DNA from: Lepiota brunneoincarnata
Lineage: Eukaryota > Basidiomycota > Agaricomycetes > Agaricales > Agaricaceae
DNA: 64,000 nt
Assembly: GCA_023014365.1 (NCBI GenBank)
Contig: JAEBUN010000003.1
Span: forward strand, 2,666,001 to 2,730,000
Reading direction: 5' to 3'
Numbering within the stretch: position 1 is the first letter of the stretch; each line of letters begins with the position of its first letter. The notes under the pieces are model-generated. The model did no database searches. It had not been told where the DNA came from and saw nothing but the letters and a program-made list of their open reading frames with translations. Shown here in pieces: positions 2,759 through 57,919 of this stretch. The position numbers and the translations under genes were made by a program.

Positions 2759-2897
2759 GGTAGGTAGGGGGGTTGAGAATGATGGGACATGGCTGTCAGC
2801 ACATCTATTTATATGTCAAAGACATGTGGTCACATGATCTTGTTGATTCACAATCAACGGAGTCATGTGATTGCTTGGATTAGTATTAAAAATTACT

Positions 2898-3107: not shown

Positions 3108-3457
3108 TATACCTACATAAACTGGGTAGAAGCCTCAACAACAGACAGATATTGTGATGCTTGCATACCTAAACCCCCAAACACCTCACCTATTACCCTT
3201 TCAGTTCAGAAACCCTGGCAGTAGTGTGGCAGTAGTGTGCAGTAGTGCACAGTAATGTTACAGTAGTGTGGGGGTAGGATACAGTATTCCTGGCAGTTAT
3301 GTATAATAATATGTGGCAGGCCATTAAACCATGGTATTGGAGTAACAACAAGTGTTTATTAGCAGGTATTAACATTGATTATAAGTATATAAAGTCTATA
3401 CTATTAATGTAAGGTGGCGGTACCACATGTGGCAAATTTTTAAGGCCCCTGGATACC

Positions 3458-22342: not shown

Positions 22343-22345
22343 CTA

Positions 22346-22564
22346 CAGTGGGTCAAAAAACTGTCCCAATGTTTTCACCATTTGGAAAGATCAGTCAACA
22401 GTGGATCAAGGAGATTATGTAACTACTTGGAAAAATAGTTAATAGTAGTATACCATATTGGGATTCCGAATCCGTTCAAATCACGTGATTCGTCCGAGAA
22501 GTAATGGATTAACTAATTATTTAAGATATTCACTCATTGGGACAGTTTTTTGACCCTCTGTCAT
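22346..22564 (+). repeat. Tc1 element 2, left 219-bp terminal inverted repeat
   Basis: Its outer end (GGGTCAAAAAACTGTCCCA) and inner end (TGGGACAGTTTTTTGACCC) are inverted copies of each other, as in element 1. Confidence 0.92.
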
Positions 22565-22572
22565 CTACCTAA

Positions 22573-23658
22573 TTAATACTTTGTATGGCCTCCTTTTGCC
22601 CTAATAACTGCCCTGAGCCTTCTGGGCATGCTTTCTATGAGTCTTTGACACCTTTCTGCAGGAATTCTGTTCCACTCCACCACCAACCTGTCCCATAATT
22701 CATGTACTCCCCCAGGTGGTTTGTCATATCCCTGTAACTGGTTCTTCAAGTGTGTCCAGAGGTGTTCAATGGGATTGAGGTCAGGTGATTGTGCAGGCCA
22801 TGGTAGAACTTGGATATTGTTCTCTTCAAACCAATTTGTTGCCTTTTTAGACCTGTGTTTTGGGTCATTATCCTGCTGGAATATCCTTTCCTCCTCCATC
22901 TCCAAACTTTCAAAGCTCTCCACCACCCCACACTCCAAAATCTCACAGTACTGCTCTGCATCCATGATCCCCTCAGCCTCCACTAGCTTTCCAACTCCAT
23001 TCCACCCCATAGCCCCCCATACCATAAGGTTACCACCACCTCCATGCTTGACAGTAGGGATAGTAGTCCTATCTGAGAGTTCTTCCCCTCTTTCCTTCCA
23101 AGTATATGTCTTTCCATCTGACCCAATCCTGTTGATTTTGGTTTCATTTGTCCATAATACTCTTTTCCAATCCTCCACTGTCCAATCCTTGTGCTTGTGG
23201 GCAAATTTGAGACAAGCAATCTGGTGTTGCTTCTTCAGCAGAGGTCGTTTAGTCTTCACAACAGAGCAAAAATTGTTCTTCTTGAGCATATTTTGGATTG
23301 TTTGTGGTGTGACAGAGGTAGGGAGTATAGGGTTAATGAATTGGGTAGCTTGAACAGCATTGTCCAGCTTCCTAGTGGTGATTTGGCAAATAATTGATTG
23401 TTTGTCCCGGAGAGAAAGCAAAGAAGGTTGTCCCCCTTTGTTGTTTTCCTTGTATAAATCAACATCTTTCTTGGTTCTTCCAACAGTACTCTTGCCTAGA
23501 CCAATTTTGGACTGAATCTGATGCAGAGAATAGCCATCCTGAAGAAGAGAAACAACTTGGGAGTACTGGGTAGAAGATGTAGCTTTCATGATGTGGTGGT
23601 AAGAAGGAAGGATGGTTGAAGTGATCTCAACATGACCATGTGATGTATAAAAGGTCAC
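22573..23658 (-). CDS. Tc1-family transposase, first catalytic Asp replaced by Asn
   Basis: A 361-codon open frame; the likelier start is the ATG at 23589 (MKATSSTQYSQ), giving 338 aa like element 1. The helix-turn-helix region (YSLHQIQSKIGLGKSTVG) is followed by the catalytic core. The first motif reads WTNETK where the family has WSDETK/WTDETK, so N171 replaces the catalytic Asp. D263 (FQQDNDPKH) and E298 (SPDLNPIEHLW) remain. The D-to-N change is one GAT-to-AAT transition. The protein should not cut DNA but could still bind its ends. Confidence 0.92.
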   Translation of the reverse strand: MTFYTSHGHVEITSTILPSYHHIMKATSSTQYSQVVSLLQDGYSLHQIQSKIGLGKSTVGRTKKDVDLYKENNKGGQPSLLSLRDKQSIICQITTRKLDNAVQATQFINPILPTSVTPQTIQNMLKKNNFCSVVKTKRPLLKKQHQIACLKFAHKHKDWTVEDWKRVLWTNETKINRIGSDGKTYTWKERGEELSDRTTIPTVKHGGGGNLMVWGAMGWNGVGKLVEAEGIMDAEQYCEILECGVVESFESLEMEEERIFQQDNDPKHRSKKATNWFEENNIQVLPWPAQSPDLNPIEHLWTHLKNQLQGYDKPPGGVHELWDRLVVEWNRIPAERCQRLIESMPRRLRAVIRAKGGHTKY

Positions 23659-23729
23659 ATGACAATGTTTACTATTCCCACGCTCGATTTGGTGCTGATC
23701 TGGGCTCTCAAAAACCAGATATTAAGAAA

Positions 23730-23948
23730 ATGACAGAGGGTCAAAAAACTGTCCCAATGAGTGAATATCTTAAATATTTAATTGATCCATTATCTCTCGG
23801 ACGAATCACGTGGTTTAAACGGATTCGGAATTCCAATATGGTATACTACTATCGACTATTTTTCCAAGTAGTTACATAATCTCCTTGGTCCACTGTTGAC
23901 TGATCTTTCCAAATGGTAAAAACATTGGGACAGTTTTTTGACCCACTG
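23730..23948 (-). repeat. Tc1 element 2, right 219-bp terminal inverted repeat
   Basis: Inverted copy of 22346-22564, ending GACCCACTG. Confidence 0.92.
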
Positions 23949-26733
23949 TCCTTTGTCCTTCTCTGATGCTTGTTTTCATATCTACAACTGTCTGATAATA
24001 TATTTGCCTCATTCGATGAATAGTGAAATGTGAATTGAGTTGGATAAGCATCTATCTTCTGCAGAGCTTCAAATAAAAAGCTGGGAGGGGACATGCCTTC
24101 ATGTGTAGCCTCATGTGCACTTCCCCTCACTCTTGTCTCAATCATTCTTGATGCACCTCAGGATACTTAAGCATTGTCCTCAACACTTCCAGTAGCACAA
24201 TGCCCTCTGGTTAGTATAGTTACCTCTCATTGTTTCCATAGTCACTCAACTTTCCTTCATGGCATATTCTATGTTTCCTAGATAGCTATCTTGGATTTGT
24301 ATAAACTTCAGGTGCTCAAGCAACTCACTAGCCAGTAGACCCTTCCACCCTCCTTCCCTTGCTCTCTCCTCACACTGTCCTTACTCTGTTCCTCTTTCGT
24401 TACACCTCCCAATGGACTCAGCCCGAGTGGTCATTTTGTCAGCCATGCCCCCCCCCCATCATTTTGTTGATGCCTTTGCTGATCATCCTTCAACACAAAT
24501 CAGGAAAAGGTTGTTAAGGAGGATGGCTTGTATTGTATGGGTGAGCAAACATATGTTGAAGTGCTATGAAGTGGAATGAGAAGGGAAGAAGGGGGAGAGG
24601 CACAACACACAAAGGGTGGTCTAAACACCCATCTTAGGCTCCAACAACACAGGTATCAACCATCATTATTTCAAAGGTGCTATGATGACCTGTAAATAGT
24701 CCTCATGTAGAAGCAGCTGAACATCCTCTCTGACAAGGAATCCTGGTGTGTATTCATGAAAGGGGCAGGAATGTCCTTGGCGATATGACCTACTTATTAG
24801 TTGGAATGGCTTTAAGAAGCATGCTGCCAGCTCACCTGCACCTTCCCCTGTGGTACAAAGGCTTGTCGTATTGGCTTTAGGTATAGGTCACCATTTGACT
24901 CCAAGTTAAATGTCATTTCTGCAGTCAGGATTCCAATCTTTGGCTGCTTGGAATAGCTGAACCAAGACTGAAGCCCCTGCTGGTTCTGTCATCTCCTCCC
25001 TTCATTATTGAAAATCAGAGATCTAGACAAGACAGCATAAAAAAACAAACAACATTGGAGCTTTCAGGATATCTTCTGTGAGCTGATCTAAGGGGTTGCC
25101 AGTACTGTTCTCTTCAGAACTTCATCAATTAAAACAGATCTAGTGCACTTTACATTGTATTACTCACTGACAAGTTTGGTTTAGAAGTGGCTCTACTTCC
25201 ATCACAATATCCGGAGTAAAGATAGTGGCATAGGGTAACCAGGCCTAACTGGTATATGTCCACTGCCTGCTTCTCATTTCTGGAGCCTCTGGCAAGCATA
25301 CTGCATTATATTAACCCCTGGCAAACTCAAAAGAAACATATGTCATACCACTTGAAGTGCGTTGATATAATCTGATTTTATTGTCCAGTTATGTGTCCTC
25401 TTTGCCAAGGATGAGACTGTGAGCTAAAGCCTATTGCACAGCCCCTCTAGCACTAGTTTGGTACACTGGTGTAGAGTGGACCCACTAACAGGACCATTCT
25501 GGAGGGAGGCTTGGATCTTGTCAATCATAGCCATTGTCATAGATCGGAGAAAGGATATTGGGGGACTGTTGCGACAGGATGGGACTTTTAACCAAAGGAA
25601 GAACAATAATTGTTGTTATGCAAACCAGGATGTTATTACAATACAAAAGTACAAAGTGATACAAATCATTGAAGGGAAGCATATCCAACTCCAATAATAA
25701 GGGCAAGGTGTGATTGATGGAACAACCACTGGCTCATCTTCTTGACTTCATAAAATTGACATTACAACTTTGGGGTGAGTAAGGAAGAGATTGAAGGAAA
25801 CTTCAAGGGAAAAGAGGGAGCGACCTGAATGAGGAAGATAGAATACAGGTTATGCTGTTGCCCAGGTGGCCTTACTGCAGCACAACATCCTCATTACTAG
25901 GAGCTCAGGTATCTAAGGACAGGTACCTAATGAAAGTGTGCTAAGGGTGGGATTCCACATGCAGCAGAATTCTGCTCCTTACAGTAAATCATTCTGAGGG
26001 TCTATCCAGGCTTGCATTAGCACAGGTGGTTCCTGAGAGAAGCACAGTAGTCCAGGTAAGCTCAGCTGAGAACAAAGAGGAGCTTACCACTGGAGTTCTT
26101 TTGTTGCCTACTGAGGTCAAGTTTAATCAGTACTTTAGTCACCCAGCTGTTTTCAAAGTGGATGAGTATTGGATATTCAATGGCCATCTAGCAAAAGAGT
26201 TGAGCTCAATATCCAGGTTCAGCATAGTGGATATCAACAGTTTGTATAGTTTTCTAGGGCGGTCAGTATATTTGAGGTGGCAGGCCAAGGAACATTCTCA
26301 CCATAATTTCTTGATGCTGTTCTTTAGCAATGCATGCCTTATGGAAGAGAGCTGGTATGGACTTGGGGGCTGTTTGGGGTTTTGGAACAGTTTCTGTGGG
26401 TGCTTCCAGGCTGGAAATTACTGTTGAGAGGTATTTACACTGCAAGGTAGTTGGTGGTGGGGTGAGCATACACTCCAGGGGAAATTGACATCAAAGAGTT
26501 GAAGGGGGAAAGCAGTGTTGGGTGCAGTACATAGTCTAGATTGGTGCCATGGTAGAAGTCAGAATGGGCCCACTATGTCATTTATATTATAGGAGTCTTT
26601 ATTCTAGCTGATTGCTATCCACTGCACACAAATAGAGGTTTACCTGCAAGGCATCTCTGAGCAGGTAATGAAGGTAACAAAAAGGAGGAGCAGGTGTCGG
26701 CTTACGTATGAAAAAAGACAATCTGTTATCACA
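23949..26733. other. 2.8 kb without a recognisable gene
   Basis: AT-rich, with a C-run near 24450. An open frame at 26026-26427 lacks an ATG but follows a CACAG acceptor-like site and encodes a plausible exon (VFKVDEYWIFNGHLAKELSS). Its family is not recognised. Nothing else supported. Confidence 0.4.
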
Positions 26734-29469: not shown

Positions 29470-30173
29470 TTGTCTTTTCCTCCTTTCAAAGCTCTTGTTG
29501 ATAGTGGTTCTACTCACTGTTTTGTGGACTCATCTTTTGTTTGTTCTCATAGTATTCCAACCTCGTCCATTCTGGCTATTGAACTTCGGTTATTTGACGG
29601 AACCTCAAATGCCTACATTACAGAGCTTGCACAACTGCCTGTATCTTTCCCCTCCGGTGAATCTATTATCTTGGACACTTATGTCACCTGGCTCAACTCT
29701 TCCTGTTCTGTGGTCTTAGGACACAACTGCCTCACCCGCTACAATCCGTTGATTGACTGGGCTTTGGGCAGTATCACTTTCCGGCCATCCCTACTCGAGA
29801 ATCCTGCTTCCGTCTCTACCTGCATCGCACCCGCATCGGCCCCGCTTATGGCCACCCCTGACACTCCTGACCTAGGTTCACCACCCCTGTCTGGGACCTC
29901 GTCCCAATCTGTCCCCCTTGTGAAACTGCACATCTCCCTGATAAACGCCCCTGCCTTTATCCGCACTGCCAAGCTCCCTGGCTCCCAACAATTCCGAATC
30001 AACCTCTCCGCCACCTCTGCATTGGCCGCATCTTCTTCTGTCTCTGAAGACCCGACTGACCTCTCATCCATCCCCGAGGAATACCACAAGTTCGCCGATG
30101 TTTTCAGTAAATTGCATGCTGACACACTCGCTCCACACCGCCCTTACGACCTCCAGATTAACCTAGAGGACGG
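29470..30173 (+). pseudogene. Element A aspartic protease, cut by element B
   Basis: Contains the retropepsin signature ALVDSGSTHCFVDSSF followed by the flap-like region and GHNCLTRYNPLIDW. The frame is open to LQINLEDG, where element B is inserted at 30174. The sequence resumes after the insertion as GGQPLVGTIYSLSQSELG (43814 onward). No ATG opens the frame; in chromoviruses protease is part of the polyprotein. Confidence 0.88.
30170..30173 (+). repeat. Element B target duplication, left copy (ACGG)
   Basis: ACGG here and at 43810-43813. Removing 30174-43813 restores an open A frame (GAG GAC GGC GGT CAA). Confidence 0.85.
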
Positions 30174-31458
30174 TGATACGCCAATTTCACGCCTATACAT
30201 GAATTCCGTACTCCGGAACGATTCTCTACATAGAATCATTGGCTATATCATTAAAGAACTCTATAGAGGATTGGTACTATGTCCCGTAGTAGCCAGTTCG
30301 ACCGAATTGAGGATATTCGAGCCTTGGAAGTGTTCAAACCAGTTCATTATCACTAAGCTTAGTGAACCAAACTGTCGGAACGCTTTCCAGAGGGATTCAG
30401 GACTCTACATAGTCTATCGAGTATACTCCGGTCGCATCAAGGGACCTTACAAGCAGTTTTCTGATGAACCCGGAGGCGTTTGAATATAAAGAATGTACCT
30501 AGCGGCTGTCGCAGGAGTATTACGTCGAAAGCGAGCCCAATAATGATGACCGGACCACGGAACGGAACGTTCAACGTTCGGGAGGCGACACCCGATGCCC
30601 AAAACCCTAGAAATATCAAAGACTCCTAATTAACAAGTGCTTTGTGGGTCCCGGCACCTCGGCCTATTGCTTAACTGAGATTAATTACAACGGATCAAGG
30701 GACTGTCCATCCGCTATACATTCCGATCATAATTGATCCAGAGTCTTAACGCGCTCGCGTGGACGCAGAATAATGCAGATGAGCACGAAACACGTCTGGC
30801 TGGATTGCCATTCGTTAATCAGAGAAAAACCCATAACCCAGGGCAAGGTAGAAATGCTGCCGAACCTTCCAAAATGTTCTACAGTGCCTGTAACAATTAA
30901 GCTTATTGTTTTCTATTTCATATTTACTATCTCTCGTATGTATCTAAACAATATAAATACGGTCGCACTTGTTCATGGAGAAGCAAGAGGTCTCACCCCT
31001 GCTTCCACACGCAAGTCTGCGAGCCGTGATCAAGAACGGTTTCAGAGGGCTATTTAGTGTGCGTCGTTAAGTGTGAATTCTTCGGTCGTCGACCAACCCA
31101 GAGACAGAGACAGAGACCAGAGTTCAGAGTTTAGAGTTCCAGAGTGCTAGAGACAGAGACAGAGACAGAGACCAGAGACCAGAGACTAGAGACCCCGCGC
31201 TTTGAATTGACAGGGATTGTCCTTTCATTGTTGCACCGTACGGCTAAGATAACTGCAACGGCTGTTCGTTAACCTCTAAAACACTACTCTCTTGAATTTC
31301 GCTGTCAGAACGCACCCCCAGAACACCCTAAAAGACGAAACTGTTCCTTATCTATCTCATTCCACTTGTATTAGCTTAAGCTTATCGAATTTCGGCTAAG
31401 CTTAGTGAAAACAAGCCCACTATCCATATTAAAACATATGAACGTTTCTACCTTTTCA
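30174..31458 (+). repeat. Element B 5' LTR
   Basis: TGATACGCC...CCTTTTCA, 1285 bp. It carries four TAAGCTTA sites (30354, 30898, 31377, 31397), the first within the 14-bp palindrome CACTAAGCTTAGTG. A (CAGAGA)n-like purine stretch lies at about 31093-31190, downstream of the TATA box. Confidence 0.95.
30952..30959 (+). promoter_or_regulatory. TATA box of the element B 5' LTR
   Basis: TATAAATA, conserved in the 3' LTR (43303-43310) and recognisable in B2 (57267 onward, AATATAAATATGG). It implies U3 of about 800 bp and a transcript starting near 30980-30990. Confidence 0.6.
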
Positions 31459-31460
31459 TC

Positions 31461-31477
31461 TGGAGCCCACCGCGAGG
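31461..31477 (+). promoter_or_regulatory. Putative tRNA primer binding site of element B
   Basis: TGGAGCCCACCGCGAGG lies two bases after the LTR end. Its complement ends in CCA as a tRNA 3' end does. B2 keeps it with one change (57792-57808). The tRNA identity is not determined. Confidence 0.65.
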
Positions 31478-31588
31478 GGGGTTTTCAGTTGAATTTCACG
31501 AGACAAACACCAAAAGACTTGGACACTGGCCCGCCTTTCACCTGCGAAGCAGAAAAAGGTTCAAGCAAAGACCGTAAAGTCACCCAAA

Positions 31589-33505
31589 ATGTCCTTCGAG
31601 AGCAGTCTCAGGAAGGTCGACCCACCAAAACAGAGAACTACTCGGAACTCCAATCGTCCAGAAGGTTCTGAAGGCCTCATCGCCGCTAGTACCTCTCGAA
31701 AGCGAAAAGATCCCGTTAGCGCTTTAGCTGCGAACACAGCGAGTGGTTCAGCAGTTGCAGTATTGAGAGAAGCCGTACCGCCAATCTCTACTGCTCCCAG
31801 AATTACTATAAGGCTTCCAGCCTCAGCTCGCAACATAGCGCATATTCTGCACACCAAAAACCAGGACGGTCAGACCGTTCCTACGCTAAGCTTAGCGTTA
31901 CCAAACCAAAACTCGTTTCATACGAACCCTTTTGGTGCCTCCACGGTACCACAGATATCACAGTCAACTCCGACTGTACAGACAAACCAAACTACGCCGT
32001 CGACGACGACTACAGCTAGAAAAATGGGACACGAGCGTATGCCAATTCCCTTTAGCAATAATGCTCCCAGGTGGGATGCATCAAAACCACAGACATTGAG
32101 AAATTATCTCTGGACGCTGGAACGTCTCTTCACGATAACGAAGACGACGGATGAGACAGAAAGAATAAATTGGGTGGTGTCATATGTGGACCAGGATATC
32201 CGTGAAGAGTGGATGAGTTTTGCGGAGTTCTTAGCAGGAAGCTGGACAGGCTTCGTAGAGAGATTAAAGAAAGAGTATCCCGAGACTGTGGCAGCCGAGC
32301 AGGGCTCAGTGCGACGCTTGAGGGAACTCTGCACAGAGAGTAGAGGCATTGCGATGAATGAGGAGCATAAAGTCTTGGACTTTAAAAGGCGATTCATTCT
32401 CGAAGCAGAGAAGTGTCTAAAGTCGCCGGCGGTAGTCTCGAACCGAGAGCTAGTCGAGTTATTTACGAGCGCACTGGACTCGGTGTTCCAGGATGTGCTC
32501 AATGCGAGATTAGCGATCACCAGGGCGCGTAGAACCGCAAGTGATGGGTCGGCACTGACTGTGAAGGATTTACGCGAAGAGGACCCCTATGATTGGAGGA
32601 TTGTCGTGGATAAAGCTGTCGAAATTTCGATTGGCAAAACACTTATGCGATCCCTTCATCAGGATTTGAGGCCGGTAAACTTGGCATCGATGAGCCATCC
32701 ACCTGCGACGTCCGGAACAGGGACTTATGACCCGGTGGTAAAGCGAGAACTGCAAAGCTTAAAGCAGAAATTTCAGGATGAAGTCTCGCAGATGGCAGGT
32801 GGCCTCGCTGAGCTTAAGGACCTCATGAATATCCAGGGGCATACCTTAAAAACATATTTAGAGAGCTCGGCGAAAGACGGACATAATCATGCCGGTTATA
32901 ATCACGCCCAGAGGAATACCGGAAGTGGGCCGGCAGGGTCGCTTTCCGATCGCAAGTGTTTCTACTGCTGGTTATTAGGGCATAGTTGGTTATTCTGCCT
33001 GGACATGGAGGCGGATAAACAAGCCGGCCGAATTAGAGTCGAAGGGAACAAAATATATATGGGAGACGGCTCGAGTATCCCTCGAGGAGAAGGGCCTATT
33101 AAAGAGAAAGTGGCAAAGTACTATGCAACAAAGGGACAACTCTTCGTTCAGATACCAGAACTGCCGGAGGTTGAGCCTGAGTTACCGCAAATACCAACGT
33201 CAGCAGTGTTTGCACAGAGAGCGTTCCCGAGGTCAGAAAACCAAAGGTCGCCAGCGGAAGAAGAAATCCGCCGTCTGAAGCAGCGCATGGAAATGTTGGA
33301 GACAGCTGCCATCCACGCTGGGAGTACCCCAAAGGTTAAGCTTATGACAAGAAAGGATGATAACGTCGAGATACAGTCTTTGGCCGAGCAATTGGCCCAG
33401 ATACAGGCTAAGCTTAGTGGTCTGACGGATGGTACGCCCTCGGCAAGCCAGTATTTGGACACCAGGAGTGGCGCGAAGACTTGGAACTCGGAGTCGGGTT
33501 TCTAA
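31589..33505 (+). CDS. Element B gag polyprotein
   Basis: 638 aa from ATG 31589. The N-terminal ~150 residues are Ser/Thr-rich and low-complexity. A helical capsid-like domain follows (PQTLRNYLWTLERLFTITKT, then VDQDIREEWMSFAEF and FKRRFILEAEKCLKS). A coiled-coil-like region is near residues 380-420. An atypical CCHC knuckle, CFYCWLLGHSWLFC, has C457, C460, H465 and C470 in CX2CX4HX4C spacing but aromatic spacers. A second coil (EIRRLKQRMEMLETA) lies near the C-terminus. The stop at 33503-33505 overlaps the pro frame, which is in the -1 frame. Expected role: particle assembly and RNA packaging. Confidence 0.93.
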   Translation: MSFESSLRKVDPPKQRTTRNSNRPEGSEGLIAASTSRKRKDPVSALAANTASGSAVAVLREAVPPISTAPRITIRLPASARNIAHILHTKNQDGQTVPTLSLALPNQNSFHTNPFGASTVPQISQSTPTVQTNQTTPSTTTTARKMGHERMPIPFSNNAPRWDASKPQTLRNYLWTLERLFTITKTTDETERINWVVSYVDQDIREEWMSFAEFLAGSWTGFVERLKKEYPETVAAEQGSVRRLRELCTESRGIAMNEEHKVLDFKRRFILEAEKCLKSPAVVSNRELVELFTSALDSVFQDVLNARLAITRARRTASDGSALTVKDLREEDPYDWRIVVDKAVEISIGKTLMRSLHQDLRPVNLASMSHPPATSGTGTYDPVVKRELQSLKQKFQDEVSQMAGGLAELKDLMNIQGHTLKTYLESSAKDGHNHAGYNHAQRNTGSGPAGSLSDRKCFYCWLLGHSWLFCLDMEADKQAGRIRVEGNKIYMGDGSSIPRGEGPIKEKVAKYYATKGQLFVQIPELPEVEPELPQIPTSAVFAQRAFPRSENQRSPAEEEIRRLKQRMEMLETAAIHAGSTPKVKLMTRKDDNVEIQSLAEQLAQIQAKLSGLTDGTPSASQYLDTRSGAKTWNSESGF

Positions 33506-34614
33506 AGGGTTCGAGGAAGGAGCCGGCTCTGAAGAAGAAGGTCGCCTTCGCCAGAGGACAGACTCCTGAGGACGCGTCGGATTCCGAGCGATCAGAAGAA
33601 TCAGAAAATGAGGAAATAGGGCAGACAACGGAGGAACCAGTGTGTGCCGCAGCAGGGGAATTACCATATAGAAATGTGAAACCACTGCGCCCGGTCGTTG
33701 AGGTGCCACCGTTGCCTGTCAGAAGGATGGAACCATCTAAGAAGGAGCCTGCGTATAAGCACCAGGCCCCTATAGAGAGGAGTGTCGATGTGGAGGAAGT
33801 ACTCAGCAGGGTATTGAAGCGAGAAGCCTCAGTATCGCATGGAGAACTCTTGGCATTGTCACCGATATACAGGAACGCTTATAGGGAGCGTATTATGAGA
33901 AAACGGGTACCCACGAGTCAAAGCTTAATAGCAGGAGTAGGGCCCTGGGACGATGATACAGAAGATATAGAGATTAATAGTGGGCCAGTACAAGTCATGA
34001 TAACGGAGCTAGCAGACGGCACTCGGAAGTATGATACAGTGCTCCGAGAAGGCTTGGCAACCCAAGCCTGGGTAGCGCAGGATCCAATCATGCAGTACTT
34101 GGAGTCACTTCCTCAAAGAGACAGGGGACGGCAAGTGTTTATTGCGAAAGAATGCGAGCCGTTGAGAGTAGTGCCAACTCTGATAAATGGGATTCGGCAG
34201 GAAGAGGCCTTGCTAGATAGCGGGTCACAGATCGTCTCCATGAGTCAGGAAGCGGCGATTGCATGTCAAGTTTCTTGGGATCCAGATACTACGATAAATT
34301 TGCAGAGTGTGAATGGGCAGGTTGAAAAGACTTGTGGACTGGCAAAGAACGTAGGCTTTACCTGCGGGGGAGTCACAATCTATTTGCAAGTTCACATCGT
34401 TCGTAACCCCGCGTATCGAGTACTCTTGGGACGACCCTTTGATGTAATGACGGCTAGCGAAGTCAGGAATAGCACCAGTGGCGAGCAAACCTTGGTTATT
34501 ACGGACCCAAATACCAGAGAACGGGCTGTGTTACCAACTTATGCTCGAGGAGAGTGTAATCCTCCTAAGCTTAGGGAAAACAGTCAAAATTTTCAAGAAA
34601 CCTCGATGAGTTGA
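33481..34614 (+). CDS. Element B protease (pro) frame, -1 to gag
   Basis: An open frame of 377 codons overlapping the end of gag by 25 bases or more. The position-33481 codon is TTG, so there is no good ATG near the start. Production by -1 frameshifting from gag is likelier than independent initiation. The first half is charged and disordered ([16 protein letters not shown]). The retropepsin domain has the active-site motif [13 protein letters not shown] (Asp codon at 34216), a flap-like region ([20 protein letters not shown]) and [16 protein letters not shown] near the end. The TGA at 34612-34614 overlaps the pol frame, which is again shifted by -1. Confidence 0.9.
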
Positions 34615-37600
34615 CTGAGGGACAAGGAGAGGTGGCTTGTATAATAGACTATGATGATGAGAAGGTCGCTTTAAAAGTGAGGCCAGTGTTAGGTGATTTA
34701 CCGGAGAAATTCAGGATAAAACGAGAAATAAAAGGGGATCCGCTGGCAGAAATGCCTAAGCTTAGCATGCATCCTCCAGAGTTTGTCCCGACAGGCAGAT
34801 ATACGGAGGAGCACAAGCTTAAGCTGGATGAAGCCCATGCAGGGGATTTCTTGTGGCCAGAAGAAAGAAAGCTGATGCACCAAGTCATGATGCTTCAAGA
34901 AAGGGCATTCGCATGGACAGATGAGGAGAGGGGATGTTTTAGGGAAGACTTCTTCCCGCCGATCGAGATACCGACGGTAGAACATACTCCGTGGGTGGAG
35001 AAGCCCATTCCGATTCCACCAGCGATCTATGATGAAGTCTGTGCCATTATAAAGAGAAAGATTAGTGCTGGTGTATACGAGCCGTCGAACTCATCCTATA
35101 GATCCCGATGGTTCTGTGTGGTGAAGAAAGATGGGAAAAGTTTGAGACTGATACACAGCTTGGAGCCGCTGAACAGAGTGACGATAGCGCATTCAGGACT
35201 GCCGCCAGCAACGGAAGATTTGGCGATGCACTTCGCAGGCAGAGCTTGCGGAGGCATTCTGGATCTATATGTTGGCTATGACGAGCGACTGTTAGCTGAG
35301 TCGTCTCGGGACTTAACAACGTTCCAGATGCCTTTTGGAGCGCTACGCTTAGTGACATTACCCATGGGATGGACCGACTCAGTGCCTATATTCCATGAGG
35401 ATGTAACAGCGATCCTAGCCAGTGAGATACCAGAATACACAATGCCGTACATAGATGATGTACCTATCAGAGGGCCGAAAACTAGATATGAGTTGCCAGA
35501 TGGCACGGAAGAGACGTTGAAAGAGAACCCAGGGATCCAAAGATTTGTATGGGAACACATGCAGACCGTCAATAGGATTCTACAGAGGATGAAATACGTA
35601 GGAGGGACCTTCTCTGGGCCCAAGACGACTATCTGCGCTGATGAAATCACCGTGGTGGGTTTTGAATGCTCATATAAAGGACGGTTGCCTGCTACAGACA
35701 CCATTGGGAAGATACTAAGATGGGGGGATTGCGAGAATGTCTCCGAGCTAAGGGGTTTTCTAGGAACAGCTACGCGCTGCAGGAATCATATCCCAAAGTT
35801 CATAGCCATAGCGGCACCTCTGTACGAAAATCTTAAAAAAGGGCAAGAGTTTGAGTGGGGAGAAAACGAACGGAAAGCGCAGCAGGAGCTGAAAGATGCG
35901 ATTCAGCGCTGTTTCCCGACCAGGAACCCCAAATTTCCGAGTAAACAACCCATAGTAGTAGCCGTGGATACCTCATGGAGGGCGGTGGGATACTACATAT
36001 ATCAGAGAGATGGAGAAGACGCTAAGCTTATACATTATGTGAAGTTTGGGTCAATATTATTGGATGAAAGACAGCAGAGATACTCTCAGCCCAAGCGAGA
36101 GCTATGCGGCTTAAGAATGGTGCTGGAACAAGAGAAATATTTACTGTGGGGATCAAGAAACTTAGTGGTGGAGACGGATGCGAAGTTTCTCTTTGGGATG
36201 TTAAACAACCCAGGGAAGCTCCCGAACGCCACAGTAAACCGCTGGGTGGACTTCATTAGGTCGTTCCACTTCATGCTAGTACACAAAGAAGGGAAGAACT
36301 TTGGACCGGACGGACTGTCCAGGCGACGCTACTATCCCGGTGATGAGACAGCCCGTCGCTTCGACGATGGATCCGAGGATGAAGGAGAGGAGTTCGAACT
36401 GATCAAAGAAGATCCAGGGGCCGCAGATCCTTTACCCTTGGAAGCCTTCTGCGATGAGATCGACAGTCGCTCTGGCTTCAACCAGGGTCTGGCGCGTGAT
36501 GTGTATGATTTTGAGTATGAGCTGGATCAAGCCCGGGAAGAGTACTTGGATGAACAACAGGCTAAGCTTAGGGTTATAGAAGACCCAGCCTGTCCAGAAA
36601 ACCATCGACAAGTACTAAGCTTAATGACGGATGTCAGGCTAGTGCCAGGTTTCGAAGAGGAAAAGTCGGCCGAGATAGAGGAAACATATGATGAGTCGCG
36701 CAGGACAGATACAGCGCGAATACAAGATGAAAGGATACCCAAAGTCAGGGAATACCTGAAAACAGGGGGCAGTAGCGCAGCTGAAGGCTTGGATGAGCCA
36801 GATCTGCGTAAGCTTAAGCATATGGTAGAGCATTTCTTCTTGGATAAAGAGGGGAGGCTGTATAGGACGAGTCCTAGCGGTCAGCATCAGCTAGTAGTGG
36901 ATAAGGAGCAACGTATGTATATGTTGCAAGCCAGCCACGACTTCCTAGGACACAGAGGAATATACGCAACCACTAAGCTTATAACGCAGAGGTTCTGGTG
37001 GCCGGAAGTTGAAGGAGACGTAGCTTGGTATGTGCAATCGTGCCATCTATGCCAGCAACGGCAAAAGGTGATCATCGAGACGCCGCCAATAGTAACGCCC
37101 ACGCCGTCGATATTCCAAGTGCTACATGTGGACACACTACATATGACGCCAAGTTCTAATGGGTGTAGTTATATTGTGCATGGAAGGTGTGGACTGTCAT
37201 CTTGGATGGAGGCAAAAGCGTTGAGAAAAGAGAACGCCAGTTTGATCGCGCAGTGGTTATTCGAAGATATCATTTGCCGATGGGGCTGTATAGTGAAGAT
37301 TGTCACGGACAACGGTTCTCCGTTTAAGAAAGCTGTTCGATGGCTGGGAGAAAAATATGGGATAAAGGGAGTAACGATATCTCCTTACAATTCCAAAGCG
37401 AACGGGATTATTGAGCGACCCCACTGGGATGTGCGACAAATGTTGTACAAAGCTACAGATGGAGACGTCAAAAAGTGGTATTGGCGCCTACCGCACGTTA
37501 TGTGGGCAGATCGGATCACCATTAGAAAAGGAATGGGGTGTTCCCCGTACTTTTTGGTAACCGGAGTGCACCCGACGCTACCTTTGGATGTCAAAGAGGC

Positions 37601-38111
37601 CACTTGGCTGGTGCAGCTACCGAATAAGTACTTGACCACGGCCGAGTTGATAGGATATCGAGCTCAGGCTTTGGCAAAACATGTTCGGCATGTTGAGGAG
37701 ATGCGTCAGCGTGTTTCAGACACTAAGCTTAGCAAGGCTTGGGAAATGGAACGGCAAGCAGCGCATAAGATAAAAGACTATCGCTTCGGCGCGGGAGATT
37801 TAGTATTAGTGAGAAATACGGCTATAGAGAGCTCAGCAGACAGGAAGATGAAACCCAGGTATCTAGGACCCATGGTGGTCATATCTAGATCAAAGGGAGG
37901 ATCTTATATCCTGGCAGAGTTGGACGGTTCGGTATGGCAGAATAAAGTGGCAGCGTTCAGAGTAATTCCCTACTTAGCCAGGAAACATATACCGTTGCCG
38001 CCGGAATTACAAGAGTTGATAGATCTGTCGCCAGAGGGACTGAAGACCCTGGAGGAGACTACTGAGGATGAGCCTAGTGACAGATGGGAGCCGGAAGAGT
38101 TGGAAGGATAG
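34611..38111 (+). CDS. Element B pol: reverse transcriptase, RNase H, integrase
   Basis: 1166 codons, in -1 relative to pro, with no ATG at the start, so expression is probably by a second frameshift. Reverse transcriptase spans roughly residues 80-420, with fingers [35 protein letters not shown] and the catalytic YIDD (D282, D283). RNase H follows from D453 in VAVDTSW, with a Glu in SQPKRELCG and an Asp in VVETDAKF. Integrase has an H-H-C-C finger ([10 protein letters not shown] ... CHLCQ) and core residues D841 (HVDTLH), D900 (VTDNG) and E935 (GIIERPH). The C-terminus [14 protein letters not shown] and [18 protein letters not shown] is the usual SH3-like tail. No chromodomain seen. Compared with B2 it lacks about 83 codons near its start. 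Confidence 0.95.
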
Positions 38112-38189
38112 AAAAAAAACCTGATATTGTGGACAGAACTATCTACTTATCAACGGAAAACTATCCTAGGGACTGTAAAAGCGTTAAGC

Positions 38190-39537
38190 TTAAGTGGGGA
38201 GGGGCTTGTCCAAGTCGGAGAGGTTGCGCAAAAGACTTTTGAGACGGATGCGCTCTTGAATGAGGAATTGGAACCTCTTTAAGTTAGCTTCGAGCGAGGG
38301 AATAGCCTCGATGAAGTCCCGGCTGAGCGAATTGAGGTCGCATTTGACAGACCGAGCGTCGTCACTGCAAGATTCAGACTCGTACTCGTTGCGAGAGTGA
38401 GACAGGAGGTTTTGGAGTTCCTGGAGCAAACGAGCTGCCCGGGAAAAGTGTCAGAACCGCTAAGCTTAACAAACAGAAGTGAGAAATTGCCCACCGGATA
38501 AGCCTGCGAAGGTGCGCTCATCAGAAGCAGACTCGGTACGGGCGCGTTTGGCAGTATTGGCGCTGGCTTTGGCTAGAACCTGTTCAGCCCGGACATAACA
38601 GCAGTGTTTAGTGTTCATATTGGGAACTTGACAATAGGGAAGAAGACGGACAGAGCCTTTAGACGATGAGGACTTTTTGACAGTCTCCTAGAGAGAGAGG
38701 AAGTCAGAATCAGTGGTTGGGGGGAGTGGAGCTGGCGCACCACGTCGGAGGTAGACAAACGACACTTGCAATAAGGCGGAACTACACAAACCTCTTCGAC
38801 AATAGCTTGAGAGACCTCCTCGTCGACCATCATGTCCTGAAGGCGAGTGATGATCTCAGCCAATGTAATAGGTTGAGAAGCAGCTAGATTACCGTGTCAG
38901 CACCAGTTGCTCGGGAGTTGGAGGCACTATTCATACTCTCCGCAGGCTCGGTATCGGTGTCGACCACAACAGCAGCAGAGATAGGGGCCTTGCGACCCTT
39001 GCGAGGCTAAGCTTATGCATGAGAAGACGATTTGAAGCCAAAAGAACGCTAAGCTTACGCGTTTGGGGACAGCAGAGCCTTCGGCAACGTTGGAGGAAGT
39101 AGAGCCAGTCGTGGACGACGGGTTCTGAGCCTCTTTGGTATGGGTTTTGTGGGATTCTTCAGAGCGGACGCGATTAATGCGGCTACAGCATTCAGAGAGT
39201 GCCTTATAGATCGCGGGCATCTCATAAGATGAATGGTAGTTGTTTTGGTAAATTTCGTAGAGCTTGCGAATACGGAAGACGTAGTCTTGGTTGACATGAA
39301 GCTTGATAGCTTCATTATCCTCCGATAACGCTTCAATATAAGCAGACTAGAAATGATTGAGGAACAGCGAGAGAAGCATGAAAAGAATAGACATACCCCA
39401 GGGGCGTCGAATGCGAGGAGAGCCTTCTCGACGAGGGGACGAGCGACTTGACCATTTTGCAGGCGCTGAAGACGACCTTTGGTGTTGCTGATGAGATCGT
39501 CGAGCTCGACTTGAAGGTTGGGGATTGAAGAAGCCAT
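38190..39537 (-). CDS. Element B antisense gene 1: six-exon hypothetical protein, 342 aa
   Basis: Read on the strand opposite to pol. Exons: 39537-39397, 39346-39059, 39006-38937, 38883-38792, 38687-38495, 38434-38190. All five introns (50, 52, 53, 104, 60 bp) are GT..AG and all phases join, giving 1029 nt and 342 aa without a stop. The N-terminus MASSIPNLQVELDDLISN and the C-terminus (LKRFQFLIQERIRLKSLLRN) look helical. The middle is Ser/Thr-rich with basic patches (PRKGRKAP, AKRARTES). No known domain recognised. Intron 2 begins with GTAAGCTTAG and ends with ATAAGCTTAG, so the element's palindrome supplies both splice sites. The stop codon also lies in a palindrome copy (38185-38192). Confidence 0.8.
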
Positions 39538-40160
39538 TTTCTTACTGAAGAGTGTCTGCTAGAATGAGACGTCGCTCCCTCGCTTTTATAAGAAAAGGCT
39601 GTCGGCAGTGATGACGAATCATGACGAGTGGATAAAGAGCACCCTCCACCCTAAGCTTATGACCTGAGAGGCCTAGGAAACCTGTAATCTTGAGTAGCCA
39701 GCCTTCGACAGACTAGCTGAACCACAGTTGCCTTATTGGGTAACAGGTCGCCAGGGTCTCGCGGTTATCAGTGTGCACAGGGATTCGGATGGAACGGTGA
39801 GGGCACCGATTTCAATTTGGCTAGGGGGAGACGGGCCCCAAGTGGCGCAAATGGCGCGTCAAACCCCGTGTACAGGCTGGTTCGGGTTCGGGCTTGTAAA
39901 TGAAGCCGGAACGGATGACCGGTTCAGCTACACATGGCGAATCGTGGCGCGCTGAGATGTCAATAAACATAGCAGAAGTATCAGAGAAATATCTGATGAG
40001 CGTATAAGCGGCTGGAAGCCTTAGCTTAGCTTGGGATATTCCAGAAGGGCCTTAAGCTTAACTCAGAAAGATACCAAGAGACAAGAATCGTTAAGCGAAA
40101 TGTAACTATATACAGGACAAGAGGATATATTACATTCAAGAGAGGAAAGGGAAGCAGGCA
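39538..40160. other. Region between the two antisense genes
   Basis: Upstream of antisense gene 1 (its likely promoter) and downstream of antisense gene 2. Holds TAAGCTTA at 39652-39659 and 40053-40060. A plus-strand open frame at 39728-39955 has no supporting features. Confidence 0.5.
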
Positions 40161-42199
40161 CTAGTTCAAGTCCTCCAAGACAGACTCCGGATCCTGAGTC
40201 ATCGGGAAAGCGAGGAAGAGGAGCGATTTGAGCTCCTCGAATTCTTCGTATGTCGGGACCCCCGGAAAGTTGTCAGCAAACTCGAAGAACGCCTGGACGT
40301 CTTCGAGGGACTCGGCCATACCCATCTCCATGAACGCCACGTCGTTACCGTCCAAGGCCATCCTGGTAGCTTGCATCTCCTGGACGAACTGGTAGATTAC
40401 ACGGCGGTGGTGGAAGGCCGATGCCTCGTAGGCAACACGATTGGCCTCCAGACTGACCAAGCTGGAGGACGCAACACGTGCGAAGGCAGCAAGATCTGGG
40501 AAATAAAAAGTGAATAAATGGGAAAAACAGTGAACAGAGAAACTTACGGTATTCACTGGTCAGTGAGGACGTGACCAGGGCGTTCGCAATGCCAGCCGAG
40601 ACTCGCGGATGGTCTGCGAAGGTACAGGGGTAGTTGTACAGGTCGCAGCTGCGACACTTCTTACCCTTGCCCAGAGGCTCGCACTCCAACTTACGAGCGG
40701 CGCAAGTAGTGCACCGAGACCGAGGCGGCACGTACTAGGGAAGGGGCAAAACAGTTAATAAGGAAACACGAGAAAAACTTGGAGAACGTACCGAAAGCTG
40801 GCTAGCTGCCAGCAGCCTAGAAAAGTCCTCACAAAAGAGCGGGACTGGGTGCCGGTATCCATGATCCTGGATTATTTCGGCTTCAGAACGTCGGATGCGC
40901 GCCCGGGGAGTATATTTCTTTGGGCGCGTGTTAGAGCTTTTCTTCGGTAGGGTTACGCGCGCGCGACGCGACCCTGAAGGTCCGGCTTGGGGAGGCAAGG
41001 ACTGGGATGTGTCTGGGACCACCGGGCTCGGCAAACGAGAGGGGACGGGGGTTGGAGAAGCTAAGAATGAGTCTTGAAAAACGAACGCCGGCTCCTGGGG
41101 AACAGGCGAAGGCTCCAAGAGGAGCTCCAAATCTGGAGAAGGCGAAGCCTCCGCGGGACTTGGGAGAGACTCGACTGAAGCAGAAGCCAAGTGAGGAAGC
41201 GAGGGCGTAGGACACCTGGGAGAGGCCAATGCGTTCCGCTCGACCAGGGTAGAGGACCAGTTAAAAATTTTGAAGAGGTCTTCTTGGGAGACCTCTGGGA
41301 CCGGAGAATGCGATGGCGAATTTGAACTCGCCAGGAACAGAGGCGACGGGGGCGGCGCAGATGACTGTGCACGTTGCTTGCCTTTGAGAGCGGCAGGGAT
41401 ACGAGCTATGAGGCACACTATTAGCAGGAGCGGAGAAATAAGCAGAAAAAGGCTTAAGCTTACGCGTAGAAGTAGCCGAAGAGGCTACAGGAGAGGAGGG
41501 GCGGTTTGTTGAAGGGCCCGGCACCTCTGAACCTGACGCAATACCCAGGGGAGGGAGCACCAGCGAGCCTTCACTGTCCAGGGTGCGCAGAGAGACGGCG
41601 AGAGGGGGCAGCAACATTGAACTGGACGGAGCCTCTGTGGATAATCCACCAGAGCGCCCGCCGACAGGGATACCTAACAAAAGTTCTGCGGACAATCCAG
41701 CAGAACTCTCGTCAGTTGGATTGCACAGTGACGCGATCGAGATGACGTATTGCGGCACAGGAGTGGACAGGGGAGTGGCCGGCCGAGGGGTTGGTTCGCG
41801 GGGCGGCGAGTACGGTGGGGGAGGGGTCCTATCCACACCTCCCTGGCGATTTCCGCGAGCTCCTCGTCCCACTCGCCCTCCTCTAGCTCTCCTAACACGT
41901 GGTGCTGGTGGTTCCCATTGAGGAAGGAGGTTGCGACGCGCCGGGAGGCGAATAGTGAGACCTAAGGACAAAGAAAGCATAAGGAAAACAACGAGAGCGA
42001 GAGAAAAGAGACTTACGTTGCGCAATCGACGAAGAGGGCGCGTCCTGAGAGGCCGGAGGGGCAGTGCTAGGCCCAGCGTAGTCTGAGGACAGTGTGAGGA
42101 AAAACAAAGATGATTGTAACACGAACTCTACTCACCAGAGGAGGAGTCCGTGTCTACTTCGTATCGGGCACGTTTGCTGCTGCGCGTGTTTCTGTCCAT
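40161..42199 (-). CDS. Element B antisense gene 2: 591-aa protein with Zn2Cys6-like cluster
   Basis: Exons: 42199-42136, 42082-42017, 41961-41464, 41417-40792, 40734-40548, 40495-40161. Introns of 53, 55, 46, 57 and 52 bp are GT..AG and phases join, giving 1776 nt. The N-terminus MDRNTRSSKRARYEVD is basic. An Arg/Gly stretch (RARGGRVGRGARGNRQGG), proline/serine-rich disordered regions and a basic segment (KKSSNTRPKKYTPRARIRR) precede six cysteines C426, C429, C436, C445, C448 and C455 (CX2CX6CX8CX2CX6C). That is the spacing of fungal Zn(II)2Cys6 DNA-binding domains. The C-terminal ~130 residues are helical and acidic. Intron 3 starts GTAAGCTTAAG, another palindrome copy. DNA binding is inferred from the cluster only. 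Confidence 0.8.
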
Positions 42200-42524
42200 T
42201 GTTGATAGAAGTGGGCATTAAGGAGTGATCTGCGAGCAGGATAAAACGAATAAAGAGTGAGAGGGAGAACGAAAGAGAGGAAACGAGACCTTGGGACATT
42301 TAAAAGACCCAATAAAGAGATAAAAATTTAAGCTATAGCAACAAGAAGTTGATCTATACATTTAAACTTGGTGACATGACATCATTTGGAATAAGCTTAG
42401 CGAAAGTGCGCTACCCTCGAAGCTGGTGAACGTTCTAGACCATAGAGCACGTCAGAGAGACTCAGATACTGCGAATTTGAAGGAGATAATGACTGAGGAC
42501 AGTCAGCAATTGGTTAGGGGGAGA
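42200..42524 (+). promoter_or_regulatory. Antisense gene 2 upstream region and element B polypurine tract
   Basis: Holds a TAAGCTTA copy at 42392-42399, about 200 bp upstream of the antisense start. At 42516-42524 is AGGGGGAGA, immediately before the 3' LTR, the expected plus-strand primer for reverse transcription. Confidence 0.65.
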
Positions 42525-43809
42525 TGATACGCCGATTTCACGCCTATACATGAATTCCGTACTCCGGAACGATTCTCTACATAGAATCATTGGCTATATC
42601 ATTAAAGAACTCTATAGAGGATTGGTACTATGTCCCGTAGTAGCCAGTTCGACCGAATTGAGGATATTCGAGCCTTGGAAGTGTTCAAGCCAGTTCATTA
42701 TCACTAAGCTTAGTGAACCAAACTGTCGGAACGCTTTACAGAGGGATTCAGGACTCTACATAGTCTATCGAGTATACTCCGGTCGCATCAAGGGACCTTA
42801 CAAGCAGTTTTCTGATGAACCCGGAGGCGTTTGAATATAAAGAATGTACCTAGCGGCTGTCGCAGGAGTATTACGTCGAAAGTGAGCCCAATAATGATGA
42901 CCGGACCACGGAACGGAACGTTCAACGTTCGGGAGGCGACACCCGATGCCCAAAACCCTAGAAATATCAAAGACTCCTAATTAACGAGTGCTTTGTGGGT
43001 CCCGGCACCTCGGCCTATTGCTTAACTGAGATTAATTACAACGGATCAAGGGACTGTCCATCCGCTATACATTCCGATCATAATTGATCTGGAGTCTTAA
43101 CGCGCTCGCGTGGACGCAGAATAATGCAGACGAGCACGAAACACGTCTGGCTGGATTGCCATTCGTTAATCAGAGAAAAACCCATAACCCAGGGCAAGGT
43201 AGAAATGCTGCCGAACCTTCCAAAATGTTCTACAGTGCCTGTAACAATTAAGCTTATTGTTTTCTATTTCATATTTACTATCTCTCGTATGTATCTAAAC
43301 AATATAAATACGGTCGCACTTGTTCGTGGAGAAGCAAGAGGTCTCACCCCCGCTTCCACACGCAAGTCTGCGAGCCGTGATCAAGAACGGTTTCAGAGGG
43401 CTATTTAGTGTGCGTCGTTAAGTGTGAATTCTTCGGTCGTTGACCAACCCAGAGACAGAGACAGAGACCAGAGTTCAGAGTTTAGAGTTCCAGAGTGCTA
43501 GAGACAGAGACAGAGACAGAGACCAGAGACCAGAGACTAGAGACCCCGCGCTTTGAATTGACAGGGATTGTCCTTTCATTGTTGCACCGTACGGCTAAGA
43601 TAACTGCAACGGCTGTTCGTTAACCTCTAAAACACTACTCTCTTGAATTTCGCTGTCAGAACGCACCCCCAGAACACCCTAAAAGACGAAACTGTTCCTT
43701 ATCTATCTCATTCCACTTGTATTAGCTTAAGCTTATCGAATTTCGGCTAAGCTTAGTGAAAACAAGCCCACTATCCATATTAAAACATACGAACGTTTCT
43801 ACCTTTTCA
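42525..43809 (+). repeat. Element B 3' LTR
   Basis: 1285 bp, about 99% identical to the 5' LTR; four TAAGCTTA sites (42705, 43249, 43728, 43748) at the same places. It is followed by ACGG (43810-43813), the right copy of the target duplication. Read from its far end it could also drive antisense gene 2, but no promoter is evident. Confidence 0.95.
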
Positions 43810-43813
43810 ACGG

Positions 43814-56488: not shown

Positions 56489-57789
56489 TGATACACCGAT
56501 TTCACGCCTATACATGAATTCTGTACTCTGGAATGATTCTCTACATAGAATCATTGGCTATATCATTAAGGAACCCTATAGAGGATTGGTACTATGTCCC
56601 GTAGTAGCCAGTTCGACCGGACTGAGGATATTCGAGCCTTGGAAGTGTTCAAACCAGCTCATTATCACTAAGCTTAGTGAACCAAGCTATCAGAATGCTC
56701 TCCGGAGGGATTCCAGACTCTACATAGCCTATTGAGTATACTCCAGTCACATCCAGGGACCTTACGAGCAGTTTTCTGATGAACTCAGATTTGTTGGAAC
56801 CTAAAGAATGTACATAGCAGCTGTTGCAGGTGTATTACGCCCATAGCGAGCCCAATAATGATGACCGGACCACGGAATGGAACGTCCAATGTTTGGGAGG
56901 TGACACCCAATACCCAAAACCCTAGCCATATCAAAGACTCATAATTAACAAGTGCTCTGTGGGTCCCAGCACCTTGGCATATTGCCTGACTGAGATTAAT
57001 TACAACGGATCAAGGGATTGTCCATATGCCATACATTCCGATCATAATTGATCTGGAGGCTTAACGCACTCGCGTGGACGCAGAATAATGCAGACAAGCA
57101 CGGAACACGTCTGGCTGGATTGCCATTTGTCAATCAGAGAAAAACCCATAACCCAGGGCAAGGTAGAAATGCTGCCAAACCTTCCAAAATATTCTGCAGT
57201 ACCTGTAACAATTAAGCTTATTGTTTTCTATTTCATATTTACTATCTCTCGCATGTATCTAAACAATATAAATATGGTCGCACTTGTTCATGGAGAAGCA
57301 AGAGGTCTCACCCCTGCTTCCACACGCAAGTCTGCAAACTGTGATCAAGAACAGTTTCAGAGGACTATTTAGTGTGCGTCGTTAAGTGTGATTTCTTCAG
57401 TCATCGACCAACCCAGAGACAGAGACAGAGAACAGAGAACAGAGTTTAGAGTTCCAGAGTGCTAGAGACAGAGACAGAAACAGAGAACAGAGTTCAGAGA
57501 CCAGAGACCAGAGACTAGAGACCCCGCACTTTGAATTGACAGGGATTGTCCTTTCACTGTTGCACCGTACAGCTAAGATAACTTCAACGGCTGTTCATTA
57601 ACCTCTAAAAACACTATCCTCTTGAATTTTGCTGTCAGAACGCACCCCCAGAACACCCTAAAAGACGAAACTGTTCATTATCTATCTCATACTACTTGTA
57701 TTAACTTAAGCTTATCAAATTTCGACTAAGCTTAGTGAGAACAAGCCCTTTAATCTATATTAAAACCCATGAGCATTTCCACCTTTTCA
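56489..57789 (+). repeat. Element B2 5' LTR
   Basis: 1301 bp, TGATACACC...CCTTTTCA, visibly diverged from the B LTRs mostly by transitions. TAAGCTTA at 56669, 57213, 57707 and 57727. The primer site follows at 57792-57808. Confidence 0.92.
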
Positions 57790-57919
57790 TCTGGAGCCCA
57801 CCACGAGGGGGGTTTTCAGTTGAATTTCATGAGACAAACACCAAAAGACTTGGACACTGGCCCACCTTTCACCTGCAAAGCAGAAAAAGGTTCAAGCAAA
57901 GACCGTAAAGTCACCCAAA

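Follow-up and report, generated by a model that had tools for sequence, protein, structure and literature searches.

A palindromic word dispersed and conserved along a fungal Ty3/gypsy retrotransposon, and its possible role as a mark of self

Why would a retrotransposon repeat one 8-bp palindrome about once every 500 letters, from one end to the other? The question is raised by element B, which occupies positions 30174-43809 of a 64,000-nucleotide stretch of Lepiota brunneoincarnata DNA (assembly GCA_023014365.1, contig JAEBUN010000003.1, positions 2,666,001 to 2,730,000 of the forward strand; the whole stretch analysed, hereafter the window). Element B is a near-complete Ty3/gypsy long terminal repeat (LTR) retrotransposon that carries, between pol and the 3' LTR, two antisense genes (aORF1 and aORF2), each with five introns and each open from start to stop. 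The repeated word, TAAGCTTA, is an exact palindrome, is therefore strand-symmetric, and has no CpG inside. It occurs 27 times in B and 41 times in the window, the other 14 sites being 13 in B2 (56669-63915) and one in an LTR relic (354). An earlier note on this DNA had listed the first bases of the 27 sites, all of them rightly, and had assigned the remainder to B2 and the relic with none elsewhere, which is where all 41 fall.

The array is far denser than composition predicts. Taken together, one LTR and the internal region (12,350 bp in all) hold 23 copies; 200 first-order Markov simulations averaged 0.17 and never gave more than 2, and the commonest 8-mer of any kind in them reached at most 8 copies. 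The gag, protease (PR) and pol open reading frames (ORFs) contain 11 copies, whereas 1,000 synonymous-codon shuffles averaged 0.097 and never exceeded 2. Both open frames are used, as had been claimed (Lys-Leu at nine sites and Leu-Ser-Leu at two), and of the 13 Lys-Leu pairs encoded there, 9 are written T-AAG-CTT-A. Only four 8-mers have the dinucleotide content of TAAGCTTA, and the other three were seen 1, 1, and 0 times; among the 64 palindromes of equal base composition, the runner-up has 2 copies. One-mismatch neighbours occupy 8 places (a two-strand tally of 16, each doubled). Across the 55.6-Mb genome, TAAGCTTA occurs 5,370 times versus 419 for TTAGCTAA, a palindrome with identical dinucleotides; the reversed word occurs 842 times and is a poor yardstick that contains CpG. 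Longer palindromes enclose several sites, again as first described, namely CACTAAGCTTAGTG in the LTRs (565 copies genome-wide) and ACGCTAAGCTTAGCGT at 31883. No flank is common to all sites, the strongest preference being a C at -1 (24 of 46 half-sites), and regular spacing was not significant (interval coefficient of variation, 0.81 versus 0.96 for random placement, matched by 21% of draws). The sites in B, listed without strand, are as follows.

30354..30361, 5' LTR
30898..30905, 5' LTR, about 50 bp ahead of the TATA-like box TATAAATA (30952)
31377..31384, end of the 5' LTR
31397..31404, end of the 5' LTR
31887..31894, gag, Leu-Ser-Leu, within a 16-bp palindrome
33337..33344, gag, Lys-Leu
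33409..33416, gag, Lys-Leu
34566..34573, protease ORF, Lys-Leu
34757..34764, pol, Lys-Leu, subfamily-specific (reference position 4784)
36023..36030, pol, Lys-Leu
36563..36570, pol, Lys-Leu
36616..36623, pol, Leu-Ser-Leu
36809..36816, pol, Lys-Leu
36974..36981, pol, Lys-Leu
37724..37731, pol, Lys-Leu
38185..38192, its first minus-strand TAA being the aORF2 stop codon
38461..38468, aORF2 intron 5
39008..39015, aORF2 intron 2, acceptor end
39050..39057, aORF2 intron 2, donor end
39652..39659, 115 bp ahead of the aORF2 start codon
40053..40060, between aORF1 and aORF2, subfamily-specific (reference position 2551)
41455..41462, aORF1 intron 3, donor end
42392..42399, about 190 bp ahead of the aORF1 start codon
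42705..42712, 3' LTR
43249..43256, 3' LTR
43728..43735, 3' LTR
43748..43755, 3' LTR

Each LTR has four sites. In the 4.4-kb antisense region, none of the eight sites lies within exons, although these fill 63% of it (P ~3e-4); one overlaps an exon by the stop codon. The antisense introns, 594 bp in all, hold four sites, two at donors and one at an acceptor. That the word avoids antisense exons yet enters gag-pol, where there are no spacers, suggests that density is wanted wherever it is tolerated. This placement also bears on whether the word serves antisense splicing or termination, for which it would supply GTAAGC donors, CTTAG acceptors, and TAA stops. Sites 41455, 39050, and 39008 do form antisense intron ends, 38461 is intronic, and 38185 gives a stop codon; however, these make up only 5 of the 23 sites, with 15 in LTR or gag-pol sequence lacking any such role and 3 between genes, and this explanation of the array is very improbable.

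Whether the word is kept, rather than merely abundant, was judged from 18 copies out of 213 or more candidates. A pol DNA query gave 213 first-look candidates, of which 40 were scored; 16 further copies, many of them truncated, were read in two pieces each (L005-L036), having been picked to span the identity range among the 40 matches listed for each of two queries, and the remainder of B2 was read as L037. The pieces read contain 20-28 sites per copy (a few counts include adjacent family fragments), and nearly all covered sites are exact, although identity to B is ~85-99% for most of a copy's length and, in some copies, drops to 74-82% within stretches of the antisense region. The 28 sites of the reference copy have a mean intact fraction of 0.937 versus 0.606 for all other 8-mers. 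CpG-free 8-mers of equal GC (n=1,260) reach 0.733, the subset with a GC step (n=102) 0.78, and CpG-free 8-mers in the flanks 0.684; only 1 in 20,000 draws of 28 words from the 1,260 attained 0.937. By column, conservation is 0.95-1.00 at motif positions and drops to 0.86-0.99 in the 12 bp on either side.

Over the 224 motif columns, variants were then polarised against a natural copy and compared with the numbers that trinucleotide context predicts. The P values assume independent columns, an assumption that does not fully hold, and a portion of the single-copy variants may have arisen before insertion. Variants common to at least two copies affect 3 motif columns versus 22.9 expected (P ~3e-7), and by piece these are 2 versus 11.9 (3' piece), 1 versus 6.9 (gag-pol), and 0 versus 1.7 (5' LTR). 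All three columns lie in the subfamily-specific sites 4784 and 2551, and site 4784 is 57 bp from site 4841 of other lineages, with two copies keeping both. Single-copy variants are weakly depleted, 6 versus 11.4 expected (P 0.06), and break down as 6 versus 4.6 in the 3' piece, 0 versus 3.8 in gag-pol (P 0.02), and 0 versus 2.8 in the 5' LTR. Since shared variants are strongly and single-copy variants weakly depleted, most of the constraint acts between replicating lineages; TAAGCTTA is kept mainly by selection while the element replicates, and decays afterwards.

Alternatively, the array could be a neutral or mutational product of slippage, small-element insertion, or mutation bias, retained for want of CpG. 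Substitutions in the family are mostly C>T and G>A, each copy has lost between 0 and 72% of the reference CpGs to TpG or CpA (L005-L037), and this pattern marks the family as a target of CpG-directed decay; TAAGCTTA decays slowly because it has no CpG, and the weak depletion of single-copy variants would fit such protection. Nevertheless, the depletion of shared variants survives the trinucleotide correction, single-copy variants of the 3' piece are not depleted, lineage differences at sites in the copies compared are point changes or small gaps with no unit insertions, and the sites have no common flank outside the 8 bp. A neutral origin is therefore extremely improbable. Mutational protection as the main cause is likewise disfavoured by the split between shared and single-copy variants, though gag-pol single-copy variants are also depleted. 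The view of the earlier note that selection targets DNA or RNA and not protein is supported by the shuffles and the variant depletion together; similar counts in shuffled controls, or drift at the neutral rate, would have spoken against it, whereas both dinucleotide-level and codon-level controls stayed far below the observed counts, and intact fractions and shared variants alike depart from neutral expectation.

The assignment of B to Ty3/gypsy follows from paired TG...CA LTRs with a target-site duplication (4 bp, ACGG, at 30170-30173 and 43810-43813) and from the order PR, then reverse transcriptase (RT)-RNase H, then integrase; the RT domain was read from the protein, whereas Pfam calls the protease, RNase H, and the integrase zinc domain and not RT. 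The parts are as follows.

30174..31458, plus strand, 5' LTR, 1,285 bp, TG...CA
42525..43809, plus strand, 3' LTR, 1,285 bp, 99.1% identical to the 5' LTR (12 differences)
31589..33505, plus strand, gag ORF, 638 amino acids (aa), without Pfam match
33481..34614, plus strand, aspartyl protease ORF (PF13975, E 1.2e-7)
34611..38111, plus strand, RT-RNase H-integrase ORF (PF17917, PF17919, PF17921)

B lacks ~248 bp at 34665, the protease-RT junction, that the other copies read possess, and with this stretch one TAAGCTTA. The LTR tracts 31100-31200 and 43450-43550 are imperfect (CAGAGA)n/CAGAGACC repeats, also present in a family LTR elsewhere. Two Tc1/mariner-type elements lie elsewhere in the window, at 1500-3109 (terminal inverted repeats of 212 bp, 99%) and 22345-23949 (229 bp, 93%), with transposase ORFs of 338 and 361 aa (PF13358, PF01498).

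The sequence into which B inserted reads as a different gypsy element, which would fit target immunity, in which bound sites block insertion into the family's own copies. At another locus (L042 6166-8500), however, one family LTR is inserted within another, adjoining the fragment of a distant gypsy relative, and self-insertion has thus occurred at least once; we consider immunity highly unlikely as the purpose of the array.

The two antisense genes were modelled from GT-AG junctions and open frames, without RNA, and have introns mostly of 50-60 bp, a length that, taken with the zinc-cluster protein and the element types, would suit a mushroom-type basidiomycete host.

40161..42199, minus strand, aORF1, 6 exons, 587 aa (42199-42136, 42082-42017, 41961-41464, 41405-40792, 40734-40548, 40495-40161)
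38190..39537, minus strand, aORF2, 6 exons, 342 aa (39537-39397, 39346-39059, 39006-38937, 38883-38792, 38687-38495, 38434-38190)
40549..40734, minus strand, aORF1 exon 5 cluster, C-x2-C-x6-C-x8-C-x2-C-x6-C, Zn2Cys6-like

Ratios of nonsynonymous to synonymous divergence (dN/dS) are 0.14-0.23 for aORF1 (eight between-lineage comparisons, one of them limited to 357 codons) and 0.07-0.31 for exons 1-2 of aORF2, and point to purifying selection on both genes where tested. CpG decay may inflate dS; even so, the aORF1 dN (0.07-0.14) remains low when set beside the raw intron divergence of the same gene (0.20-0.28). Synonymous divergence of aORF1 (40161-42199; loci L006, L012-L034) is 0.53-0.68 versus 0.14-0.31 for pol in the same copy pairs (~2- to 5-fold), and also exceeds the raw divergence of its own introns; contributing causes may include CpG-rich exons, module exchange between lineages, and a higher rate. 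Zinc clusters of the Zn2Cys6 type follow the spacing C-x2-C-x6-C-x(5-12)-C-x2-C-x(6-8)-C, which the aORF1 cluster fits, and none of its six cysteines varies in the 13 aligned copies (14 loci had a match; L010 and the frame-broken L018 were left out of the alignment).

We propose that TAAGCTTA would be the recognition site of a sequence-specific protein, bound to double-stranded DNA as a symmetric dimer, and that the element may have been selected for dense sites along its LTRs, gag-pol, antisense introns, and spacers. The most likely binder would be the element's own antisense product, with aORF1 and its Zn2Cys6-like cluster as first candidate and aORF2 as second. Once bound, this protein would label the family's copies as self and maintain their chromatin in a transcribable state or oppose silencing by the host, much as VANC proteins act for plant VANDAL transposons. 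Exact palindromy, strand symmetry, use of both frames, weak flanks, and the lack of RNA accessibility (below) make a dimer on double-stranded DNA the best reading, and the spread of sites through the entire element, even into coding sequence, speaks for coverage of element chromatin or DNA rather than for a plain promoter function. The CpG-directed decay of the family, and the absence of CpG from the word, also count in favour of the proposal. That an element or host protein binds the array on chromatin DNA is probable; we infer further that the element encodes this protein and that its effect is anti-silencing rather than ordinary activation. To the full model (dimer site array, element-encoded binder, and self-marking or anti-silencing function) we assign a probability of roughly 0.45. 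Tentatively, the array may amount to a self-marking code written into genes, introns, a stop codon, and LTRs, by which a nuclear protein made from the element's own antisense strand coats family copies and overrides host silencing. Among the roles first suggested for the palindrome, a site for a dimeric protein fits best and self-recognition is possible, whereas RNA dimerisation is disfavoured by predicted folds and splicing control does not extend beyond 4 of the 23 sites (5 with the stop codon).

Several observations weigh against this proposal. The depletion of single-copy variants in gag-pol blurs the split between selection and slow mutation. CpG decay was independent of distance to a site (805 CpGs; rho 0.009, P 0.80), and with no such trend near sites, any protection they confer does not outlast activity. 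In Pfam, aORF1 exon 5 does not reach the gathering score for PF00172 Zn_clus (18.9 bits; cut-off, 21), and its best match is another zinc family, PF12172 zf-ChsH2, itself below cut-off (22.6 bits; cut-off, 23.2); the whole aORF1 protein gives E 0.0059 for zf-ChsH2 and 0.079 for Zn_clus. RSC30, a Zn2Cys6 protein, was the sole solved chain to match the cluster, with an insignificant E of 7.3, and the AlphaFold model of exon 5 is of low confidence (mean predicted local distance difference test score, 45.6). Typical Zn2Cys6 proteins bind CGG half-sites, and TAAGCTTA has none. For aORF2, Pfam returned Med28 alone (E 0.027, far below cut-off). Finally, the binder could be a host protein.

The last point defines the principal rival, in which a host transcription factor or architectural protein binds the sites, the element gains activation, insulation, or favourable chromatin, and the antisense genes are otherwise employed. 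Precedent exists in Su(Hw), which binds the insulator of Drosophila gypsy. The same conservation of sites would be expected, one LTR site lies ~50 bp ahead of the TATA-like box, and each antisense start codon has a site upstream of it. However, the sites of a host factor are usually concentrated in the LTR or leader, whereas B has 11 in gag-pol coding sequence, up to kilobases away, and the pol fragment of a distant relative in the same host has no copy of the word. Two integrase-peptide patterns that B's own codons could not match found none and three places, respectively. One of these three was read; it is a fragment, 88% identical, from an additional subfamily and keeps 4 of 4 B sites in the aligned pol-side stretch. 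A pattern for a second peptide found one distant relative, at C10. The distant relative's 3.0-kb pol-like sequence (L042 3201-6191) has no TAAGCTTA, versus six in the matching stretch of B. The longer 5.4-kb stretch (L042 770-6200), part of which may belong to another element, also has none, with no 8-mer above 4 copies, and no antisense region was recognised in this fragment. At four comparable pol positions the relative (36-52% identical) is without Lys-Leu, and the B protein there seems to follow the DNA word, weakly so given the distance and the decay of the fragment. On balance, a host factor is somewhat unlikely to explain the array. A weak search for other families with a saturating word of their own, covering the 8-mers of the rest of the window, element A, 20 kb of C46, and the distant relative's fragment, found none; no relatives elsewhere turned up in viral contigs or in prokaryotic genome contigs, the latter set saying little.

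The word might instead serve replication, with Gag, integrase, or an antisense protein acting on the complementary DNA or genomic RNA in packaging, compaction, nuclear import, or strand transfer. Sites do run throughout the replicated genome, both LTRs included. In predicted RNA folds, however, they are unpaired at 0.42 versus 0.54 for GC-matched positions (P 0.02) and 0.43 for random ones, and an 8-nucleotide palindrome is unusual for single-strand RNA recognition. Packaging at the DNA level is possible; a replication role as a whole is unlikely. RNA kissing loops or dimerisation are disfavoured, since the folds give the sites no extra accessibility.

Several known systems invite comparison with a dimer-bound, self-marking array. 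Bacterial self-recognition words, such as DNA uptake sequences and Chi, are short, occur far above chance, and are found within coding sequence as well; unlike TAAGCTTA, they are chromosomal rather than mobile-element words and are served by other machinery. To our knowledge, sequence-specific anti-silencing by transposons is rare outside plant VANDAL DNA transposons, and no such array in an LTR retrotransposon was found in the literature, as judged mostly from titles and abstract openings.

The closest functional parallel is the VANC/VANDAL system of Arabidopsis, in which, as described in the part of the source drawn on here, a transposon family encodes a protein that recognises a 9-bp word, built up in members of that family, and lifts silencing (PMC5735166); the motifs are given as YAGTATTAY for VANC21 and AGTTGTCC/AGTTGTAC for VANC6 (PMC5735166). 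B shares with VANDAL a family-specific short motif built up within the element, and the effects of VANC span the whole element (PMC5735166). On the same partial account, VANDALs are plant DNA transposons whose motifs are non-coding, often in tandem repeats, and non-palindromic (PMC5735166). B, by contrast, is an LTR retrotransposon rather than a Mutator-like DNA transposon, with sites that are dispersed, perfectly palindromic, and partly coding, and its binder is only a candidate; no VANC-type protein was seen among the Pfam matches of the antisense proteins (E up to 1), which were zf-ChsH2, Zn_clus, and Med28, all below cut-off.

Sirevirus LTRs, in the cited excerpt, also present a high-copy palindromic motif in an LTR retrotransposon, with a suggested regulatory role (PMC2829016). 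These are plant Ty1/copia elements, and the motif described there mostly has a CGG-CCG core and forms CpG islands, in LTRs and ahead of env (PMC2829016), whereas B has TAAGCTTA, 11 coding sites, and the gypsy gene order. Plant Ty3/gypsy elements of the Retand/Grande type resemble B in their long region between pol and the 3' LTR with antisense genes, suspected in the available portions of two reports to be regulatory and possibly DNA-binding (PMC11963269, PMC7264820), and B has antisense ORFs in that very position. The antisense proteins of B are natural candidates because similarly placed Retand proteins are suspected DNA binders, on the part of the report cited (PMC11963269). In the same portions, Retand is characterised by a TRP28 domain and by its occurrence in plants (PMC11963269, PMC7264820), whereas B combines a Zn2Cys6-like cluster with two five-intron genes and with a palindrome array along the whole element, and Pfam found no TRP28 (PF04195) domain in its antisense proteins. 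If the proposal is true, it suggests a possible task for antisense genes in LTR retrotransposons, described in those portions as functionally unknown (PMC11963269, PMC7264820). The 8-bp site and its two candidate proteins make a directly testable system. A dispersed, selected word with antisense candidate readers would show that such systems arise in other classes of element, and B would represent a non-plant, retrotransposon counterpart of VANC in which the needs of DNA recognition shape selection on protein-coding sequence.

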